Of a stretch of DNA of 56,760 nucleotides, positions 3,139-18,610 are shown piece by piece. Location: IMG/VR virus record IMGVR_UViG_3300044691_000555, positions 1-56,760 of that record; one strand, written 5' to 3'. This DNA comes from a virus. A model generated the notes under the pieces. It was given only the letters and a program-made list of their open reading frames with translations. It did not search any database and had not been told where the DNA came from. Position 1 is the first letter of the stretch; each line of letters opens with the position of its first letter. The translations under genes were made by a program, and so were the position numbers.

Positions 3139-3492
3139 CTATTCGGCGGCCTCGCTCGCCTTTGGCAGCGCCCGACAGCGGGCGATCTGTTCGAGTTTGT
3201 GCCGGCCACGCGTCACGCGCTCGGCGTCGCCGCTGCCGATATCGAGCTTGGCCATGTGCTCGACAGGGCCGTATTTGTCGGTCAGCACCGCGCCGTATTT
3301 GCGCGCCAGATGCTTCTTGCCGAGGCCGATATCGAAATGCACCCACGACGCCTTGGGCGGCTGCTGCAGCCATTTCTGCTGCAGCCCGATGCGCCGGGCC
3401 ATCGCCAGCAGTTCGTCGAGCGTATCGGCCCACATGTGGCGCATCGTCATGTGACGGAACTTGTGCCTGACGTCGTCGACATAGACCGTCAT
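3139..3492 (-). CDS. DUF4031 family protein
   Basis: 117 residues starting MTVYVDDVRHKFRHM, followed by HMWADTLDELLAMARRIGL and WVHFDIGLGKKHLA. These are the conserved blocks of the small DUF4031 family common in phages and bacteria. Its biochemical role is not established. Its start overlaps the stop of the adenine methyltransferase (3489). It lies between the DNA modification genes and the replication gene. Confidence 0.8.
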   Translation of the reverse strand: MTVYVDDVRHKFRHMTMRHMWADTLDELLAMARRIGLQQKWLQQPPKASWVHFDIGLGKKHLARKYGAVLTDKYGPVEHMAKLDIGSGDAERVTRGRHKLEQIARCRALPKASEAAE

Positions 3493-4367
3493 TCAGCGGC
3501 CCCTTCCATCAGCGTGTGGAAGTTGCGCTTGTCGCGATCGAGAGCTGCTGCAGCCGCCGGATTGATCCACAGCACTTCGGTGCGCGGCCGCGCGCCATCG
3601 GCCAGCGCCGCGAATTCGATGCGCCGCCAGTCGTGCAAGGCGTCGTCGTAGAGCGGGTGGGCGTAGCCGGACAGCACCACCATGCCGATCAGACCCCGGA
3701 GCGTCTCCAACAGCCTGACGTGCCCCCCCCCGTCGAGTTCGTGCTTATAGGCGGACTTGCCGCCCTTGAACATCGAACGGGTGTCGTGGACGTAGGGCGG
3801 GTCGACATAATGCAGCGACGTCGGCGCATCGTGGCGGGTCAGCACGATCAGCGCGTCGCGATGCTCGATCACGACGCCGCGCATGCGCTCGATGATCGCG
3901 CCATAGGCGTCCGGCAGATTCTGCCAGTCCTGCGCCGGCGTGGTGCCGCTGCGGTTCGAGTTCGAGCGGAAGCCCGTCGATTGATGCCCGCGTTGCGTCG
4001 CCGAATGGGCGTTGCTGCCAAACCCCATGAACGAGCGGATCACCAGCCGCCGCGCGCGCTCGACCGGATCGTCGGCGGGCTCATAGGCGATCTCGAATTC
4101 GCGCCTGGCGAACGGCGTCAGCCGCAGCAGTTCGATCAATCGGCAGGCCTGCGCCGGATCCTGCATCACCCGGAACAGCCCGACGATGTCGTCGTCAAGA
4201 TCGTTGTAGATCTCGGCATGGCTGCGCGGCTTGTGCAGCAGCACGCCGGCGCCACCGCCGAACGCCTCGGTGTAGAGCCGATGTGCCGGCAGGTATGGAA
4301 TGATCTGGCGCGACATCAGGAATTTGCCGCCGTGCCAGCGGACTGGTGGGCGTGTGATCGCGTTCAT
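3489..4367 (-). CDS. D12-class DNA adenine N6-methyltransferase (Dam-like)
   Basis: 292 residues. The N-terminal VRWHGGK and FGGGAG (about 36-41) form the AdoMet-binding motif, and the catalytic DPPY is at about 189-192, the order of the D12 (Dam/DpnM) class. It would methylate adenine N6 in a short site, which cannot be read from sequence. The start ATG overlaps the RT stop (4364). Its position directly after the DGR reverse transcriptase makes it co-transcribed with it. With no restriction endonuclease nearby, self-protection from host restriction is likely. Confidence 0.93.
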   Translation of the reverse strand: MNAITRPPVRWHGGKFLMSRQIIPYLPAHRLYTEAFGGGAGVLLHKPRSHAEIYNDLDDDIVGLFRVMQDPAQACRLIELLRLTPFARREFEIAYEPADDPVERARRLVIRSFMGFGSNAHSATQRGHQSTGFRSNSNRSGTTPAQDWQNLPDAYGAIIERMRGVVIEHRDALIVLTRHDAPTSLHYVDPPYVHDTRSMFKGGKSAYKHELDGGGHVRLLETLRGLIGMVVLSGYAHPLYDDALHDWRRIEFAALADGARPRTEVLWINPAAAAALDRDKRNFHTLMEGAAE

Positions 4368-5368
4368 GCCGAAGTCCCTTTCTTCGGCACGCTGATTCCG
4401 AGGCTCCGGATCAGGTTGGTGCTATCGGCCCAGCGCGCGTGACCGAGCCATGCTGCCAGGAATTTTCGCAACCGCTCGTAATCGCCGGCGGCCCGGTACG
4501 CCGCGATTTTGCGCCGCGCCCGCGTCACGCTGTCCTTGCGCAGCAGCTTGTGGCTGGCCCAGATCCGGTAGCCGAGGAAATTGACGCCGCGCGAGACCGG
4601 CGCGATCTGCCATTTCGAGACCCGCAGCCCGAGTTGCTGGCGCGAGAATGCCTCGATCGCTTCCTTGACCCGCCGCAGATGCTCGGAACTGCGGCCGAGC
4701 ACCACGATGTCGTCCATGTAGCGGTACCAGACCCGCTCGCCGAGGGTCTGTTGCAGATAGCGGTCGAGCGTGGCGCCAGCATAGAGATTGGCGAAAATCT
4801 GCGACGTCAGGCTGCCGATCGGCAGGCCGATGCCGGCGCGCGGCACCATCGCTTCGATCAGTTTTAGCGTGGCGCGGCAGGAAATCTTGGCCTCGATCAG
4901 CCGCCACAGCACCTTGCGCTCGATCGAGGCGAAATAGGCCGAGAAATCCGTCTTGAGGAAGTAGAGCGGGCCATCGCGGGACTCGCGCCGCAACTCGCTC
5001 TGCAGCAGCACCACGCCGGCATGCGTCCCCTTGCCCGGACGGCAGGCGAATGCCCGCGGCAGCAGCGCGCGGTCGAAGATCGGCGCGATCACCAGGCACA
5101 GCGCCTGCTGCGCGATGCGGTCGCGGAACGGCAGCGCCGAGATCAGCCGCAGCTTTGGATCGAACACGTGGAACTGGTGCGGCGGACCGGCAACGTAGCG
5201 GCCGTCTGCGACGTCCCGGGCGAGATCGGCAAGGTTGAGCGCCGAAAATTCCTTGAATTCGAGATAGCCCGGCGTCAGCCGCTTGCCGGCGGCGGTCAGG
5301 CGCAGTGCCGCTTCCATGTTGCGCGGCGAGGTGATGTTGCCGATCAGATTGCGGTAGCGCTTTGTCAT
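4364..5368 (-). CDS. DGR-type reverse transcriptase
   Basis: 334 residues. RT palm motifs are visible in order: RPGKGTHAG (about 110-117), FLKTDFSAYFASI (137-149), IGSLTSQ (184-190), the catalytic YMDD (217-220) and a following FLGYRIW. The [ILV]GSxxSQ form of motif 4 is characteristic of DGR reverse transcriptases. It would copy the TR-containing RNA with adenine infidelity to make cDNA that rewrites the VRs. It lies 184 bases after the TR. Its ATG overlaps the TR-containing frame by 4 nt (ATGA), preceded by a GGGGGCG purine stretch. The next gene overlaps its stop. Confidence 0.97.
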   Translation of the reverse strand: MTKRYRNLIGNITSPRNMEAALRLTAAGKRLTPGYLEFKEFSALNLADLARDVADGRYVAGPPHQFHVFDPKLRLISALPFRDRIAQQALCLVIAPIFDRALLPRAFACRPGKGTHAGVVLLQSELRRESRDGPLYFLKTDFSAYFASIERKVLWRLIEAKISCRATLKLIEAMVPRAGIGLPIGSLTSQIFANLYAGATLDRYLQQTLGERVWYRYMDDIVVLGRSSEHLRRVKEAIEAFSRQQLGLRVSKWQIAPVSRGVNFLGYRIWASHKLLRKDSVTRARRKIAAYRAAGDYERLRKFLAAWLGHARWADSTNLIRSLGISVPKKGTSA

Positions 5369-5691
5369 GACGCCCCCGCTGAAAAACCGGCCGCGGGTCT
5401 CGACAGCCGCAAATTGATGCGACCGCTACGCCCCGCTCTGCCGGACCGTGAAGTGTGTTCGCCGAAGCAGGACAGTCGGGCTGACCACCAGCCTTGGCTG
5501 AGTGTGATCCGCCGGCGCGACCGTGATCGTTGCCGAGCAGCAATCAGCATAAGGTCGTCACTGCGGCCGCGGGCGCCGAAGTTCTCGTTCGAATTGCCGG
5601 GGAAGTTGTACGCGACGTTCGCCTGGCGCGAGCCCGCGTCGTCGTCGTTCCACCAGTTCCCGCCGAACAAGGAAGCGCGCGGCTGCATCAT
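5365..5691 (-). CDS. Open frame containing the DGR template repeat, possibly translated
   Basis: 108 codons beginning ATGATG inside the end of avd and stopping TGA inside the RT start, with 4-nt overlap at both ends. The first third reads the TR in the same frame as the target proteins (PRASLFGGNWWNDDDAG, then Asn-rich). The rest is unlike the targets and rich in Arg/Ser. GGGGAA lies upstream of the ATG. It may be translated only to couple avd and RT translation, or be a remnant of a duplicated target 3' end, or be coincidental. No function is claimed. Confidence 0.4.
   Translation of the reverse strand: MMQPRASLFGGNWWNDDDAGSRQANVAYNFPGNSNENFGARGRSDDLMLIAARQRSRSRRRITLSQGWWSARLSCFGEHTSRSGRAGRSGRINLRLSRPAAGFSAGAS
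5552..5683 (-). repeat. DGR template repeat (TR)
   Basis: 132 bp homologous to VR1 (offset 588) and VR2 (offset 12166). In the coding orientation it holds 23 adenines, clustered as AAC/GAC-type codons. All differences to the VRs occur at these adenines except one at 5556, in the 3' edge where IMH* and IMH are expected to differ. A G/C-only 16-mer (5563-5578) forms the 3' part, as in the initiation-of-mutagenic-homing element of BPP-1. No downstream hairpin like that of the VRs is present. Confidence 0.97.
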
Positions 5692-6098
5692 TTCCCCGCC
5701 TGCCCCATCGGACGCGCGGACGCGTCAGATGCTTTCAGCTTCCTTTGCCATGCGCCGAGCATTTTTCCGGGCTCCGCCAGTAGCGCCAAGGCGGCGACAT
5801 GCTGTTTCGGGCCGAGGATTTTGATGTCGCCGCGACTGAGGAAGCGCAGGAATGACCGCAAGGTCGCGAACTCGGCATCGACGGCGTAGAGCCGCGACAC
5901 CTGCCTCGATTTTGCGGCATGGTAGAGGCCGCCGATCGGCCCGAACAGCGCCGCCAGCACGGCATCCCGGAGGACACCATGCCGGCGCGGCGCGTTCTGC
6001 AGGATCGGATAGAGATAGTTCACAAAGGCCTCGTATCGTTCCACGATCGCCAGGGCGTCGGTTGCTGAGTTTTCGTCCCTGACGATCTGAGTTTGCAT
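5688..6098 (-). CDS. avd: Avd-like accessory variability determinant
   Basis: 136 residues, predicted all-helical and basic: IVERYEAFVNYLYPILQNAPRRHG, then helices through LRSFLRFLSRG and HVAALALLAEPGKMLGAW. Size, four-helix pattern and position between target 1 and the TR match Avd, the pentameric helical-bundle protein that binds the RT and template RNA in DGRs. Individual Avd sequences diverge, so the call rests mainly on size, helix content and synteny. The stop lies 5 bases before the TR, and an ATGA overlap joins it to the TR frame. An alternative is an unrelated helical protein, which I consider unlikely. Confidence 0.88.
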   Translation of the reverse strand: MQTQIVRDENSATDALAIVERYEAFVNYLYPILQNAPRRHGVLRDAVLAALFGPIGGLYHAAKSRQVSRLYAVDAEFATLRSFLRFLSRGDIKILGPKQHVAALALLAEPGKMLGAWQRKLKASDASARPMGQAGK

Positions 6099-6107
6099 TG
6101 GCTAACC

Positions 6108-6127
6108 GCCGTCGCTGTCGCGCCGGC
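6108..6127 (-). other. DGR target-1 hairpin downstream of VR1
   Basis: Coding orientation GCCGGCGC-GACA-GCGACGGC: an 8-bp stem with one G.A mismatch and a GACA tetraloop, 12 nt beyond the end of VR1. DNA hairpins just after the VR are known to boost target recognition in BPP-1. The stop codon of target 1 (6127-6129) abuts the stem. A matching structure follows VR2 and not the TR. Confidence 0.85.
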
Positions 6128-7032
6128 TAGACAGGTTGCAGGTGGTCACTGCGGCCGCGGGCGCCGAAGTTCTCGTTCGAATTGCCGGGGAAGTTGTACG
6201 CGACGTCCGCCCGGCGCGAGCCCGCGTCGTCGCCGCCCCACCAGTACCCGCCGAACAAGGAAGCGCGCGGCGTGTCGGGGTCGCCGTCATGGCCCCACAC
6301 CCACAGATTGCCGGTTGCCTGCATCAGGCCGAACTTGCTGGTGCGCGGCGCGTCGAGCCCGGTCCTGACCGGATCATCGCCGATCGCCGTTTTTTCGGTG
6401 ACGCCGAACGCCGCGGCGAAAAACTCCTCGACGCTCAGCAGCCCCTTGCCATGCGCGGCCATCACGGCGGCCGCGGTGGCATAATCGAACCGCTTGTAGG
6501 TCTTGCCGGCGGGATCAAGCGGGCGGTCGTTGCCGTCGGCGATGGTGACGCCGAACTTGCTGGTGCCGTCCTCGGCGCAATTCGACCCGGTCAGATAGAT
6601 GTCGGCCCAGAATTTCCGGCCCAGCATCTCGACCAGCGCCATGCCGCGCGGATCCGGACACGCCGGGCGGAAATTCAGGTCCCACAGCGAGAACGGATTG
6701 ATTGCGGGAATCTCGTCGCCGCCGGCCCGCGCGGCCGCATTGCCGCCGGGCGCAAAGTGGAAGCCGCCGATATAGTCGGTTTCTTCCGGCGAACGCGTCG
6801 ACCGGAATGCGACGGGCGCGCCGCCGAGCGCCACGACATAGTCGGCGCCGGGCACCAGGCCCTGCTGCGGCAGCATCACCGGGGTATCTTCCGTCAGCGA
6901 CCGCTCGCCGAATGACGTTCCGGCCTTGACCAGCAGCGTATCGCGACCAGTCAGCTTCAGGACCGGCGAATGCACATCCATCTTGGTCAGGATCGATATC
7001 GGCCGATCTTCAAGTCTTGCTTGCTTGTTCAT
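6127..7032 (-). CDS. DGR target protein 1 (C-type lectin/FGE-fold, variable C-terminus)
   Basis: 301 residues. An N-terminal region of about 75 residues precedes a formylglycine-generating-enzyme/C-type-lectin style domain (IGGFHF, NPFSLWDLNFRPACPDPRGM, SKFGLMQATGNLWVWGHDG), the fold in which DGR variable residues are displayed on the surface. The C-terminal 40 or so residues are VR1 (GGYWWGGDDAGSRRADVAYNFPGNSNENFGARGRSDHL). No signal peptide is seen. GGAGA lies upstream of the ATG. It likely acts as a binding or tropism protein, but it is not in the structural gene block. It is paralogous to the protein at 17660-18610. Confidence 0.95.
   Translation of the reverse strand: MNKQARLEDRPISILTKMDVHSPVLKLTGRDTLLVKAGTSFGERSLTEDTPVMLPQQGLVPGADYVVALGGAPVAFRSTRSPEETDYIGGFHFAPGGNAAARAGGDEIPAINPFSLWDLNFRPACPDPRGMALVEMLGRKFWADIYLTGSNCAEDGTSKFGVTIADGNDRPLDPAGKTYKRFDYATAAAVMAAHGKGLLSVEEFFAAAFGVTEKTAIGDDPVRTGLDAPRTSKFGLMQATGNLWVWGHDGDPDTPRASLFGGYWWGGDDAGSRRADVAYNFPGNSNENFGARGRSDHLQPV
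6140..6271 (-). repeat. DGR variable repeat 1 (VR1)
   Basis: 132 bp aligned base for base to the TR at 5552-5683. Six substitutions lie in the variable part, all where the coding-strand TR has A: four A-to-G and one A-to-G/one A-to-T pair by codon (on the + strand five T-to-C and one T-to-A). The 3' edge differs by one base from the TR (6144 G versus 5556 C on the + strand). The G/C-only 16-mer at 6151-6166 is unchanged. Confidence 0.97.
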
Positions 7033-8030: not shown

Positions 8031-8281
8031 CGGCCGAACCTCCGGAAGGTGTTCGAGACCAGAGCCACCGCGTCGAAACCGAGCAGGATCACGACAGCGA
8101 TGACGGCGCCGCCGAAAGCACCGATCACGGTGACGACGCGCACGGCGGCGAGGTTGAGCGCTTTTCCCGGCCCCATTCCGCCGCGACGATCGCACCAGCG
8201 CTGGCCGGTCATGATCGCCAGCACGGCGCCGATGATGCCGGCTGCGACGAACAGTGCGGCGATATCTGCCTTGGTCATCAT
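8027..8281 (-). CDS. Small two-helix membrane protein, hypothetical
   Basis: 84 residues with two hydrophobic stretches: ADIAALFVAAGIIGAVLAIM near the N-terminus and VIGAFGGAVIAVVILLGF in the second half, separated by a charged loop. It starts with ATGATGA at the end of the cytosine methyltransferase gene; either Met is possible. Function unknown. Confidence 0.65.
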   Translation of the reverse strand: MMTKADIAALFVAAGIIGAVLAIMTGQRWCDRRGGMGPGKALNLAAVRVVTVIGAFGGAVIAVVILLGFDAVALVSNTFRRFGR

Positions 8282-10461
8282 TCGGCAGCCTCCAGCGTGA
8301 ATTCGAGATCGTCGGGGAGCTCGATCTCGCGCGGCGCGAAATTGGCGCGCACCAGCGCTTCCGCCAACGGCGGCGGCACGCTGTTGCCGCACTTCGAGAC
8401 CTGCTGGGTTTTGGTGATGGCGACGCGGTCGCCTTTCTTCCAGCCCATATCTTCGTCGTCGGCGATCGCGATGCCTTCGGCGATGATGTAGCTTTCAGGA
8501 AAGCCTTGGGCGCGGAACAATTCGCGCGGGATCAGCATCCGCATCCCGATATCGTTGATGACGTAGGGCTCGCCCTCGATCATCACGGTGACGATGGCCG
8601 CGCGATCTTTCGTGGTGACCGTATGCAGCGGATCGTCCGGCGTTTGACCGTCGCCAGTGCCGTAATATTTCTGCAGGAACGCCGCCGACAATTGCGTCTT
8701 GCCCTGCCCGTCCGCCATCACGGTCCGCGCCGGCTCGTCCAGCGACGACCCGACCCCGGTCCCGAACTGCCGCAGCAAATTCGCCGCGACCAGGCCCTGA
8801 TGCGAGCCCGTATGCAGGATGGTCGAGACCGGCGCATCGACCGGACGGCCGGGGTTGATCCCATCGCCGCGCGAGATGTTGTGCTGCGCCAGGAACGCCG
8901 CAACCAGGTGCATATGCGCGCCGCCGGCCGTGACCGTATGCGCCGGCTGATCGGCGCCCTGGAACGGCTTGCCTGCGTTGCGCATCGTCATCAGGTGCGG
9001 CGCGACGATGCCGATCGGCGCCGCCCCGCCCGGGCGCTTGAGGTAGGAATTCGAGGTCACCGTCGGTGCCGGGTGTTCGAGCGACGCGCCGACCTGGCCG
9101 CCGTGAAACTTGGTCAGATGCGGCGCGATCAGCGCATGCCGGTTTTCAGTCGTCTGCGTCCGCAACGGGTCTTCGACGCTGGCGCCGCGGCCGCTTTCGC
9201 CTTCACCTTCGCCGTAATAGGCGGACAGCACGGGCGCGATCAGCGCATGCTTGACCCCGCCGGCGACGGTCGTGCCGAGCGGCTTGTCGAGGCCGGGCAC
9301 ACGCGGTTCCTGCCCCTCGCGCTCGCCGTATCCGGTCTGGATCAGCGTCGGCACGATGATCTGGTTCTGATCCTTCGCCGATGCGGTAATGGTATGCATC
9401 GGACCGGCGGCCGCCCGGATGCTGCCACCTTGCTGCGCGGCGCTGACGAACGGCGTGACGACGACGCTATCGGCCTTCGCGGTCAACGTTTGCGCCGGCA
9501 GATCGATGCCGCGCGGTTCGGTCTGGCCCATTCGCCCGCCGACACCGGCCACGAACGGCACGGCCAGCGCCTTCTCGCCGCGATGTGCGCCGGTAATGGT
9601 CGCGATCGGATCGTCGATCGACTCGGTTCGATCGCCGCCCTGATGCGTCAGATTGACGATGAACGGCTTGGCCGCATCCAGCACGTAGCGCTTCACGCCC
9701 TTGGCGATCCGCGCCATCGTCGCCGGCTGCAGCGGCCGGACCGCCCGCAGTCCGAATCTTTCCATGATCTCCGCGGCAGTGTCGAAGATCGAGGGGCACG
9801 GCAGCGACCAGTCGATGATTTCGGCGGCCGTGCGCCATGGCAGTTTATTGCCGGCGGCAACGTCGGGATCCTTCGGGCCGCCATGCGTCGGTTTCGGCCA
9901 CACGATCGGCAGGCCATCTCTCCTCGCAATCAGGAACAGCCGCTTGCGGATGGTCGGCGCGCCATAGTCGCAGGCGCGCAATTCGCGATGCTCGACCCTG
10001 TAGCCGAGCCGCTTCAGTTCATTGACCCAGCGCTTGAAGGTCGCGCCCTTGCGCTCCGGGCACGGGCGGCCATCTATGGCCAGCGGTCCCCACGTCTGGA
10101 ATTCCTCGACGTTCTCCAGGATGATGACGCGCGGTTTGACCTGGCGCGCCCAGCGCACCACCACCCAGGCGAGGTCGCGAATGCTCTTCTCGACCGGCTT
10201 GCCGCCCTTGGCCTTGGAAAAGTGCTTGCAGTCCGGCGAGGCCCACAGCAGCCCGACCGGACGGCCATCACAGACCTGCAGCGGATCCACCTTCCAGATT
10301 GAATGCGGCAGATGCAGCGTGTCCGGATGGTTGGCCGCATGCATCGCCAGCGCAACCGCATCATGGTTGATCGCGATGTCGGGCGAGATGCCGAGCGCCC
10401 GTTCGATGCCCGTCGAGGCGCCGCCGCCGCCCGCAAAGCTGTCGACGATCAATTCCCTCAT
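8278..10461 (-). CDS. DNA (cytosine-5) methyltransferase with central repeats
   Basis: 727 residues. Motif I SFAGGGGASTGIE (8-20), catalytic-cysteine motif SPDCKHFSK (C78), ENVEEF (116-121) and a QxRxR-like APTIRKRLFLIARR (about 168-181) define the Dcm class. Between about residues 270 and 640 are some ten imperfect repeats of a '(L/V)(D/E)xPxxTVTAxxxHxLVAPxL' pattern in place of an ordinary target recognition domain. Motif IX/X-like MRMLIPRELFRAQGFP is near the C-terminus. It is likely a protective modification enzyme with unusual or multiple specificity; no partner endonuclease is seen. Its stop overlaps the membrane protein gene. Confidence 0.93.
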   Translation of the reverse strand: MRELIVDSFAGGGGASTGIERALGISPDIAINHDAVALAMHAANHPDTLHLPHSIWKVDPLQVCDGRPVGLLWASPDCKHFSKAKGGKPVEKSIRDLAWVVVRWARQVKPRVIILENVEEFQTWGPLAIDGRPCPERKGATFKRWVNELKRLGYRVEHRELRACDYGAPTIRKRLFLIARRDGLPIVWPKPTHGGPKDPDVAAGNKLPWRTAAEIIDWSLPCPSIFDTAAEIMERFGLRAVRPLQPATMARIAKGVKRYVLDAAKPFIVNLTHQGGDRTESIDDPIATITGAHRGEKALAVPFVAGVGGRMGQTEPRGIDLPAQTLTAKADSVVVTPFVSAAQQGGSIRAAAGPMHTITASAKDQNQIIVPTLIQTGYGEREGQEPRVPGLDKPLGTTVAGGVKHALIAPVLSAYYGEGEGESGRGASVEDPLRTQTTENRHALIAPHLTKFHGGQVGASLEHPAPTVTSNSYLKRPGGAAPIGIVAPHLMTMRNAGKPFQGADQPAHTVTAGGAHMHLVAAFLAQHNISRGDGINPGRPVDAPVSTILHTGSHQGLVAANLLRQFGTGVGSSLDEPARTVMADGQGKTQLSAAFLQKYYGTGDGQTPDDPLHTVTTKDRAAIVTVMIEGEPYVINDIGMRMLIPRELFRAQGFPESYIIAEGIAIADDEDMGWKKGDRVAITKTQQVSKCGNSVPPPLAEALVRANFAPREIELPDDLEFTLEAAE

Positions 10462-10757
10462 CGCTGCGCCCCTTCATCGGCATTCGGTTCCGGCGTGGTC
10501 AGGATCGTCTCGACGATCTGCTGCACCGATTTCCGCTTGAACGCGCCGGCATCGGCGGCGCGTGCCAGCCGCCGCGCCCATGCTGCCGGGAAGCGCTTGA
10601 CGCTGCGCGGCCCGCCGTCGATCCCGATCACGGTGACCCGTTCCAGTTCGTGCGGGCTTTCGCGCTGTGTCGTCTCGTGCACCAGCAGCACGACGGCGTC
10701 AGCGACGCGGGCGGCGGTCGCGCCAGGCTGGCCGAGGATGGTGAGGAGGTCCGTCAT
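10458..10757 (-). CDS. Hypothetical protein
   Basis: 99 residues, starting MTDLLTILGQPGATAARVADAVVLLVHE. Mixed alpha composition with a basic middle (RSVKRFPAAWARRLARAADAG). It overlaps the ASCH gene upstream and the cytosine methyltransferase downstream by 4 nt each, so it is translated with them. I recognise no family. Confidence 0.6.
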   Translation of the reverse strand: MTDLLTILGQPGATAARVADAVVLLVHETTQRESPHELERVTVIGIDGGPRSVKRFPAAWARRLARAADAGAFKRKSVQQIVETILTTPEPNADEGAQR

Positions 10758-11233
10758 GCCGGCACCCGCTGCATCATCTCGCCAGCCACATCGATCGGAA
10801 TCGAGAAGAACCCCTGCGCGCCCTTGAACGGAATCGGACGGTCCAGCTTGATGACCCGGCGCCTGCGCCAGGCAAAACGTTCATCGGACCAATTCCCGCA
10901 GACGCGATCCTCATCATGGGCCGGCGACGTTCGATCCATGCGATCGCAGCTGACCAGCTCAACCGCGCCGAGGATCGCGCCCGTCGGCAGGTCCATCGCC
11001 CAATGGCCGCCGAACTCGTTCTCTAAAATCTCGCGCAGCGGATGGCCGACAGGGAAATCGCGCTCGAAACGTTTTGCGGCGTGAACGGCCAGCCAGCCGC
11101 GGTAGCCGGTTTTCCAGTGCCGCGTCTCCGTCGGCTTGCTCTCGGTCAGCCATAGTGATGCCCACGGCTGCCAGAGCGAAAACCCCTTCATGGTTGGCGC
11201 CGGATCTTCGATTTTGAAGAGATCGCCGGTCAT
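10754..11233 (-). CDS. ASCH-domain protein
   Basis: 159 residues. KGFSLWQPWASLWLTESKPTETRHWKTGYRGWLAVHAAKR is the characteristic beta-barrel start of the ASCH superfamily (MKxxSLxQPWAxLxxxGxKxxETR, GxxxIHAaK). These proteins bind RNA or modified nucleobases. The Met at 11233 overlaps the upstream stop; a second Met at 11191 sits right before the domain and is an alternative start. It may act in base-modification biology alongside the methyltransferases (inference). Confidence 0.85.
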   Translation of the reverse strand: MTGDLFKIEDPAPTMKGFSLWQPWASLWLTESKPTETRHWKTGYRGWLAVHAAKRFERDFPVGHPLREILENEFGGHWAMDLPTGAILGAVELVSCDRMDRTSPAHDEDRVCGNWSDERFAWRRRRVIKLDRPIPFKGAQGFFSIPIDVAGEMMQRVPA

Positions 11234-11601
11234 GCCACTGCCTCGCAGGTCTGCCGGTTCAACAGTTCAAGCAGTGGATCGCCGTGGCAGGCCGCGTCGG
11301 CGGCGCACCAGCAGGCGACGTTGCGATGACGCAGCGCCTTCAAATTCTCGGCGATGTGGCTGATCACCAGCCGCTGGCTTTCGAGGCTGGCCTTGCGCGA
11401 GACCGCCAGCCGGCCGCCCAGCATCATCCGGAACAGGTGCACGCATTCCGTCCGGTCACCGTCCTCGCCGACCACGAAGGGATTGCCGAGCGGACCCGGC
11501 CTGGCGATGTTGACCGCCGGCAAGCCGTTGAGCGCCAATGAGGCCGCCTGCAGGTTAAAGCCCTTGGCGCGGGAAAGCCGGAGGCGGACGGGCTTGATCA
11601 T
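11230..11601 (-). CDS. DUF4326 family protein
   Basis: 123 residues with RPGPLGNPFVVGEDGDR near the centre and a C-terminal LACWC-type block (RHRNVACWCAADAACHGDPLLELL), the Cys/His signature of DUF4326. Function is unknown in the family. It overlaps both neighbours by 4 nt. Confidence 0.85.
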   Translation of the reverse strand: MIKPVRLRLSRAKGFNLQAASLALNGLPAVNIARPGPLGNPFVVGEDGDRTECVHLFRMMLGGRLAVSRKASLESQRLVISHIAENLKALRHRNVACWCAADAACHGDPLLELLNRQTCEAVA

Positions 11602-17659: not shown

Positions 17660-18610
17660 CTACAGCGCCCGCGCCCGGACGAGACCGCCGTCGCTGCCGC
17701 GCCGGCGACCAGGTTGCAGGTGGTCACTGCGGCCGCGGGCGCCGAAGTCCTCGTGCGAATCGCCGGGGAAGACGCACGCGACGTACGCCCGGCGCGAGCC
17801 CGCGTCGTCGCCGTACCACCAGTACCCGCCGAACAAGGAAGCGCGCGGCGTGTCGGGGTCGCCGTCATGGCCCCACACCCACAGATTGCCGGTCGCCTGC
17901 ATCAGGCCGAATTTGCTGGTGCGCGGCGCGTCGAGCCCGGTCAGCTTGGGATCGCGTTTGGCAGAACTCTTTTCCGTGACGCCGAAAGCGGCGGCCGGAA
18001 ACTCGTCGAGGCCGAGCAGCCCCTTGCCATGCTGCGCCATCACCGCGGCCGCGGTCGCATAGTCGAACCGCGCGTAAGGCTGACCGGTCGAAGGGTCGAG
18101 CGGACGGTCGTTGCCGTCGGCTATGGTCACGCCGAATTTGCTGGTGCCGTCGAGATGGCAGGTCGCGCCGGTCAGATAGACATCGCACCAGAACTGTCCG
18201 CCGGGCTTTTGCACCAGCGCCATGCCGCGCGGATCGGGGCACGCGGGGCGAAAATTCAGATCCCACAGCGAACACGGATTGATCGCCGGAATGTCATCGC
18301 CGCCGGCGCGCGCGGTGGCGTTGCCGCCAGATGCGAAGTGAAAGCCGCCAATGACGTCGTCGCTCGACGGAACAGCAAAAGCGCGCAACGCCCGCGCCAC
18401 GCCGCCGGATACGACGACGCCATAATCCGCGCCGACAACCAGCGGACTGGCGAACTCGACCGGTGTCTGCTTTGCGAAACGCTGTCCAGCAAAAACGATC
18501 CCGGCCCGGATCGCGATGGTTTCCGCGCCGGTCGCGATCAGCGCCGGCAGATCGGGGTCTTTCTTGATCAAGATCGCGATCGACCCATCCATCTTGGCAT
18601 GCGCGTTCAT
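17660..18610 (-). CDS. DGR target protein 2 (C-type lectin/FGE-fold, variable C-terminus)
   Basis: 316 residues, paralogue of target 1: shared IGGFHF, NPCSLWDLNFRPACPDPRGM, TSKFGVTIADGNDRPLDP and SKFGLMQATGNLWVWGHDG. The C-terminal variable part reads GGYWWYGDDAGSRRAYVACVFPGDSHEDFG, more diverged from the TR than target 1. It lacks target 1's stop and continues through the downstream hairpin with a basic GRRRGSDGGLVRARAL tail. The N-terminal 75 residues differ more between the paralogues. GGAGG lies before the ATG. It is about 11 kb from the DGR core, so it is diversified in trans. Confidence 0.94.
   Translation of the reverse strand: MNAHAKMDGSIAILIKKDPDLPALIATGAETIAIRAGIVFAGQRFAKQTPVEFASPLVVGADYGVVVSGGVARALRAFAVPSSDDVIGGFHFASGGNATARAGGDDIPAINPCSLWDLNFRPACPDPRGMALVQKPGGQFWCDVYLTGATCHLDGTSKFGVTIADGNDRPLDPSTGQPYARFDYATAAAVMAQHGKGLLGLDEFPAAAFGVTEKSSAKRDPKLTGLDAPRTSKFGLMQATGNLWVWGHDGDPDTPRASLFGGYWWYGDDAGSRRAYVACVFPGDSHEDFGARGRSDHLQPGRRRGSDGGLVRARAL
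17687..17706 (-). other. DGR target-2 hairpin downstream of VR2
   Basis: Coding orientation stem GCCGGCGC/GCGACGGC with a GGCA loop, 11 nt beyond VR2; identical stem to the VR1 hairpin. Here it lies inside the target-2 coding frame. Confidence 0.82.
17718..17849 (-). repeat. DGR variable repeat 2 (VR2)
   Basis: 132 bp aligned to the TR without gaps. Eleven substitutions fall within the variable part, every one at a TR adenine (coding strand), including A-to-G, A-to-C and A-to-T changes. The single non-adenine difference is at the 3' IMH edge (17722), shared with VR1. The G/C-only 16-mer at 17729-17744 is unchanged. Confidence 0.96.

Follow-up and report, generated by a model that had tools for sequence, protein, structure and literature searches.

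A template repeat and its structured RNA lie within an open reading frame between avd and the reverse transcriptase in a clade of phage diversity-generating retroelements

Introduction

The closest described relative of the system analyzed here is the diversity-generating retroelement (DGR) of BPP-1, with the gene order mtd-avd-TR-brt. The BPP-1 spacer recruits bRT-Avd, and cDNA is primed from an adenine in this spacer (PMC12875486). The brt gene has no clear RBS, and activity becomes 100-fold higher when an RBS is added (PMC12875486); therefore, translation of the reverse transcriptase (RT) can be limiting. The location of the template repeat (TR) "in most cases is intergenic", which is usual but not strictly defining (PMC8144416). 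The balance between making the enzyme and using the template in DGRs appears unsettled in the literature searched.

Fusion of the TR to the RT is itself not new, having been noted earlier in single phages. In the Pseudoalteromonas phages ACA1 and ACA2, the RT is described as carrying the translated TR as an N-terminal extension (PMC10612066). The RTs of these phages, of Vibrio phage VP58.5 and of plasmid p0908 are annotated from the avd stop, with the TR in frame as the RT N-terminus. DiGReF (2012; group 3) lists the 5' overlap of TRs with annotated RT ORFs as an architecture class (PMC3521204), without a frame rule, coupling or a translation argument. The PHROG 1423 profile already contains the N-terminal extension, and RefSeq and GenBank already annotate Vibrio-type RTs from the avd stop. 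Group II intron RTs of the LtrA type are encoded within the RNA that they bind, and binding near their own start represses translation. The likeness to these RTs is one of principle only: the element here is no group II intron, and the template and RNP-assembly RNA would be the translated leader.

Results

The window is a stretch of 56,760 nt, positions 1 to 56,760 of IMG/VR virus record IMGVR_UViG_3300044691_000555. This 56.8 kb phage record has genes for a contractile tail, integrase, portal and terminase. Judged by its sequence, the cassette is a genuine BPP-1-type DGR with two targets. On the minus strand, the gene order is target (7032..6127), avd (6098..5688), 108-codon ORF (5691..5365) and RT (5368..4364). 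The features are:

6127..7032 (-): target gene 1, a Mtd-like tail protein with VR1 at its 3' end (PHROG 11262, E 5.5e-81)
6140..6271 (-): VR1, with 7 mismatches to the TR, 6 at TR adenines and 1 at the IMH end
5688..6098 (-): avd, accessory variability determinant (Pfam PF22296, bAvd, E 1.4e-26; PHROG 3206, E 1.6e-26)
5365..5691 (-): TR-spacer ORF of 108 codons, with ATGA overlaps with avd and RT; frame open in 59/62 loci
5552..5683 (-): TR, in the same frame as the targets
5386..5538 (-): structured DGR RNA (RNP-assembly and priming spacer) inside the ORF (Rfam RF03022, Phage_DGR)
4364..5368 (-): DGR reverse transcriptase (Pfam RVT_1, E 4.8e-19; PHROG 1423, E 9e-111)
17660..18610 (-): target gene 2, 70% identical to target 1, carrying VR2
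17718..17849 (-): VR2, with 12 mismatches to the TR, 11 of them at TR adenines

The window thus contains a DGR-type RT, adenine-biased TR/VR differences, Avd and a structured RNA downstream of the TR. The RT is 54.7% identical to BPP-1 Brt, and target gene 1 has a weak match, below the cut-off, to the second domain of Mtd. TR adenines account for 17 of the 19 mismatch sites over both VRs, and VR1 and VR2 share their one remaining mismatch, a G-to-C change close to the 3' (IMH) end. Hairpins of the GRNA type are present just 3' of VR1 (GACA loop) and 3' of VR2 (GGCA loop); a GRNA-loop hairpin after the VR matches the description of BPP-1 (PMC3240598). Target 2 and its own VR sit ~11 kb from the cassette and are more heavily mutated than target 1 (11 adenine positions). 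Two differently mutated VRs together with intact genes suggest recent activity of the DGR. The cassette resembles that of BPP-1 in gene order, Avd, RT, the adenine rule of the TR and VR, and the position of RF03022 between TR and RT. By contrast, BPP-1 has no connection between avd and the TR frame, which ends 31 nt short of brt, and it lacks the ATGA link. A DNA-level search of plasmids gave no matches.

The usual noncoding interval between avd and RT that holds the TR is absent from the window, and an open frame spans the distance from the avd stop to the RT start. An earlier note on this DNA had described this frame of 108 codons as starting in the avd stop and ending in the RT start through two ATGA junctions; its coordinates are exact, and its placement of the TR inside the ORF in the frame of the targets is borne out. 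The avd TGA at 5690-5688 sits within ATGATG, and the ATG of the ORF begins at 5691, giving a 4-nt ATGA overlap. The TGA of the ORF (5367-5365) overlaps the RT ATG (5368-5366) in a second 4-nt ATGA junction, and the RT stop overlaps the next gene, a methyltransferase, by ATGA as well. Overlaps of 4 nt occur in 9 of 56 same-strand neighbors in the window, the TR ORF not counted, and a stop-free spacer is expected by chance with p ~0.55 in this sequence of 65% GC. The single genome proves little because an open spacer is this probable and 4-nt overlaps are common in this phage; as we read the sequences, the evidence for the frame is the comparative data. ATGA-joined gene runs on the minus strand are observed at 3139-5691 (avd, TR ORF, RT, methyltransferase and a 117-aa ORF) and at 8278-11601 (727-, 99-, 159- and 123-aa ORFs). 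The 727-aa product (8278-10461, minus strand) is a DNA methyltransferase with a long repetitive insert, and covers a much shorter stretch of its PHROG profile.

RT searches yielded 114 distinct loci in which avd and RT are both present. Clustering at 95% leaves 62 loci in the window's clade (RT identity of at least 64%, SH-aLRT 96). The TR frame is open to the RT in 59 of these 62 non-redundant loci, where 28.4 are expected under a Markov null, so the relatives keep the open frame despite their divergence, which the earlier note had proposed to check. The commonest state is an in-frame fusion of TR-spacer and RT (48/62). In eight loci the TR frame ends exactly in the ATGA of the RT start, as it does in the window, and in three the first base of the stop codon lies 5 nt past that of the RT start, so that the frame ends within 8 nt of it. 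The proposed frame is therefore real and joins avd to RT, with strong support from the relatives, but a separate 108-codon ORF is not its usual state. Three loci break the frame: L077 has a genuine early stop (-153), L021 is interrupted by an inserted ORF, and L087 breaks only 13 nt before the RT. Stops or frameshifts in relatives had been named as evidence that would speak against the frame; stops are found in these 3 of 62 loci, and where the frame slips, the shift is mostly compensated or the frame runs out at the RT start. The apparent short ORF of L021 (1929-2556, ~107 codons) lies between the DGR RNA and the RT. Another locus, L065, has ~380 nt between avd and TR, yet retains the TR-RT fusion.

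The phase of the frame is preserved in several respects. Stops are scarce in the TR frame of the spacers of the 62 loci (5), compared with 63 and 88 in the remaining forward frames. In 51 of 62 clade loci versus 2 of 42 outgroup loci, the avd stop is overlapped by a start codon that lies in the TR frame. The RT begins with ATGA in 8/8 split loci versus 9/48 fused loci. The split ATGA state requires 7 changes on the tree; in this reconstruction the split form is one that arose several times, and the window is one example. The avd-RT spacing differs by a multiple of 3 in 18 of 27 independent sister pairs (p 4e-4), the outgroup count being 5 of 16, and shifts in TR-to-core phase are usually offset by the core-to-RT phase, giving fusion in 5 loci and ATGA in 4 (Fisher p 5e-4); both p values are approximate, with pairs or events treated as independent. 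The RNA core contains an invariant TAG, which is in the TR frame in none of the 62 loci; the TR-to-core phase changed ~10 times on the tree, never to the phase in which this TAG is a stop. Stops predominate in the outgroup, BPP-1 included, and no phase is favored there. A further pattern is seen in L054, L036, L037, L038, L043, L119 and L060 (BPP-1 and several relatives): the RT frame itself is open for 573-891 nt upstream, crossing the spacer, the TR and a large part of avd, and is distinct from the frames of avd and TR. This upstream opening may be due to chance at high GC.

The 3' part of the ORF (bases 5538-5386) matches the full-length RF03022 model with 75.1 bits (E 2.9e-13), above the gathering score of 50, and the same model matches relatives, BPP-1 included. 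An alignment of 40 loci contains 23 predicted pairs, 8 of which have compensatory changes on both sides. The length of the spacer is variable, as hairpins grow and shrink among loci. Read in this way, one stretch of sequence is template, RNP-assembly RNA and open reading frame together. Conservation of the core peptide GWWSARLSCFGEHTSRSGRAGRSG suggested a protein motif, a reading that we rejected: 11 loci read this DNA in a different frame, and it belongs to the Rfam RNA.

Does selection act on the peptide or on the passage of ribosomes? In 8 independent pairs, substitutions at the three codon positions number 51:53:46 in the spacer, 71:46:164 in avd, 70:35:244 in RT and 16:8:33 in the TR, the bias in the TR arising because it must match the coding VR. 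Codon-position GC in the spacer (63/73/66%) is unlike that of ordinary coding sequence, and the RNA core of the spacer is read in two different frames among relatives. In the AlphaFold2 prediction for a fused protein, pLDDT is ~25-30 over residues 1-100 and low up to residue 108, and the RT folds well from near its own start; the spacer peptide is predicted to be disordered. Because the spacer is without amino-acid selection and its peptide is predicted to be disordered, ribosome passage into the RT, and not the peptide, appears to be selected. A functional TR-spacer peptide in the window's clade is unsupported by codon-position counts or AlphaFold2.

SD-like pairing at the ORF start is strong in fused loci (-8.2 kcal/mol), versus -2.7 for random sequence and -3.6 for outgroup loci with stops. 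The internal RT start codon is kept in 48/48 fused loci, and the SD-like sequence belonging to it is of moderate strength (-5.8 kcal/mol). Its universal retention makes independent RT initiation probable too; the RT probably arises by two routes, through the fusion and from the internal start. A stop/start overlap or an in-frame fusion, the sequence part of translational coupling (dependence on upstream translation aside), is found in 59/62 loci.

The ACA1/ACA2, VP58.5 and p0908 type differs from the window's clade in its distant RT, fusion in every locus examined and frequent lack of an internal start. In the Vibrio/Alteromonas/Pseudoalteromonas-type clade (42-50% GC), RTs are ~33-38% identical to that of the window, and TR-RT fusion, starting from ATGA at the avd stop, is present in 16/16 loci examined. 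At least four of these loci have no other ATG, GTG or TTG as far as 15 codons inside the aligned RT domain; therefore, barring a non-standard start, the TR is translated if the RT is made. Substitutions by codon position show a mild bias in the spacer (32:42:56) and a clear one just before the RT (41:36:84). RF03022 was not detected in the Vibrio-type fused loci scanned, and the only hit was RT-14 RNA, in two more distant members. In L198, a Photobacterium damselae plasmid, an in-frame stop interrupts the RT ORF, and the TR and VR are still recognizable.

Discussion

The best explanation of the data as a whole, which we consider likely, is that the TR region is a translated link from avd to the RT in which ribosome passage is selected. 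Ribosomes finishing avd would re-initiate at the overlapping ATG (ATGA/GTGA) with the help of the strong SD-like stretch in the avd 3' end, and would unfold and read through the TR and then the structured DGR RNA. They would reach the RT either by staying in frame, as in the common fused state, or via the stop in the ATGA of the RT start followed by re-initiation, as in the window. Points against the link are the frame breaks in L077, L021 and L087, the retained internal RT start, and the BPP-1 outgroup, which works without it.

The open frame could also be an accident, the TR being open as a copy of the coding VR and the GC-rich structured spacer happening to be free of stops. The probability in the window alone, the missing codon-position bias of the spacer and the abundance of ATGA overlaps in this phage all agree with chance. 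The relatives do not: 59 open frames against 28 expected, 5 stops against 63 and 88 in the other frames, and a phase repeatedly re-set to fusion or ATGA, with nothing comparable in the outgroup. On these data we reject chance, which we regard as very improbable. The main rival is anti-polarity, in which translation of the 320-nt TR-spacer only keeps Rho from terminating before the RT and the downstream methyltransferase genes. It would account for a frame that is kept while its peptide is unconstrained, and it fits the high GC and the ATGA overlaps that join the downstream genes. But BPP-1-like relatives lack an open linked frame across a similar gap, and protection from Rho explains neither the exact end at, or fusion with, the RT start nor the strong SD at the avd stop; we consider it unlikely as the sole explanation.

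Less likely still is a function for the TR-spacer peptide as an N-terminal domain of the RT, for example one tethering the RT to its own template RNA. Fusion in 48/62 loci would be expected of such a domain, as would the Vibrio-type RTs, which can often be produced only as a fusion and whose codon-position bias rises from mild in the spacer to clear just before the RT. In the window's clade, the spacer lacks amino-acid selection, its RNA core is read in two frames, the peptide is detached from the RT in 11/62 loci, and disorder is predicted.

If the TR region is the translated link proposed here, translation and template use would compete, because the ORF and the DGR RNA RF03022 share nucleotides. 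We infer that the TR-spacer is translated at a useful level, and that each transcript at any moment either carries ribosomes through its DGR RNA or is assembled with RT-Avd to make cDNA; the two uses would be exclusive on one molecule because RT-Avd binds the same RNA. Such exclusivity would couple the supply of RT to free template RNA, and RT-Avd binding would shut off its own synthesis. Tentatively, this may amount to a translation-gated switch, possible although rather doubtful, in which avd ribosomes unfold the TR and DGR RNA to make RT, RT-Avd binding or cDNA priming blocks further RT, and the RT is self-limited. The earlier note had presented competition between translation and template use as a possible regulatory mechanism not known to be described. 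Translation of the TR as an RT extension (PMC10612066) and TR overlap with the RT 5' end (PMC3521204) were on record. In the DGR literature searched we found neither the frame rule nor the split ATGA form, and neither the phase compensation nor the coupling, though specialist papers on DGR RNA control may describe them.

For annotation, these loci carry a warning: many database RTs of this type start with ~105 residues of template and structured RNA, not enzyme. They are also relevant to DGR engineering, as RT translation limits activity (PMC12875486). The whole clade keeps its template and RNP-assembly RNA passable for ribosomes by two interchangeable solutions, fusion and ATGA. In the phage of the window, as in about sixty relatives, one RNA stretch probably has to double as message and template.
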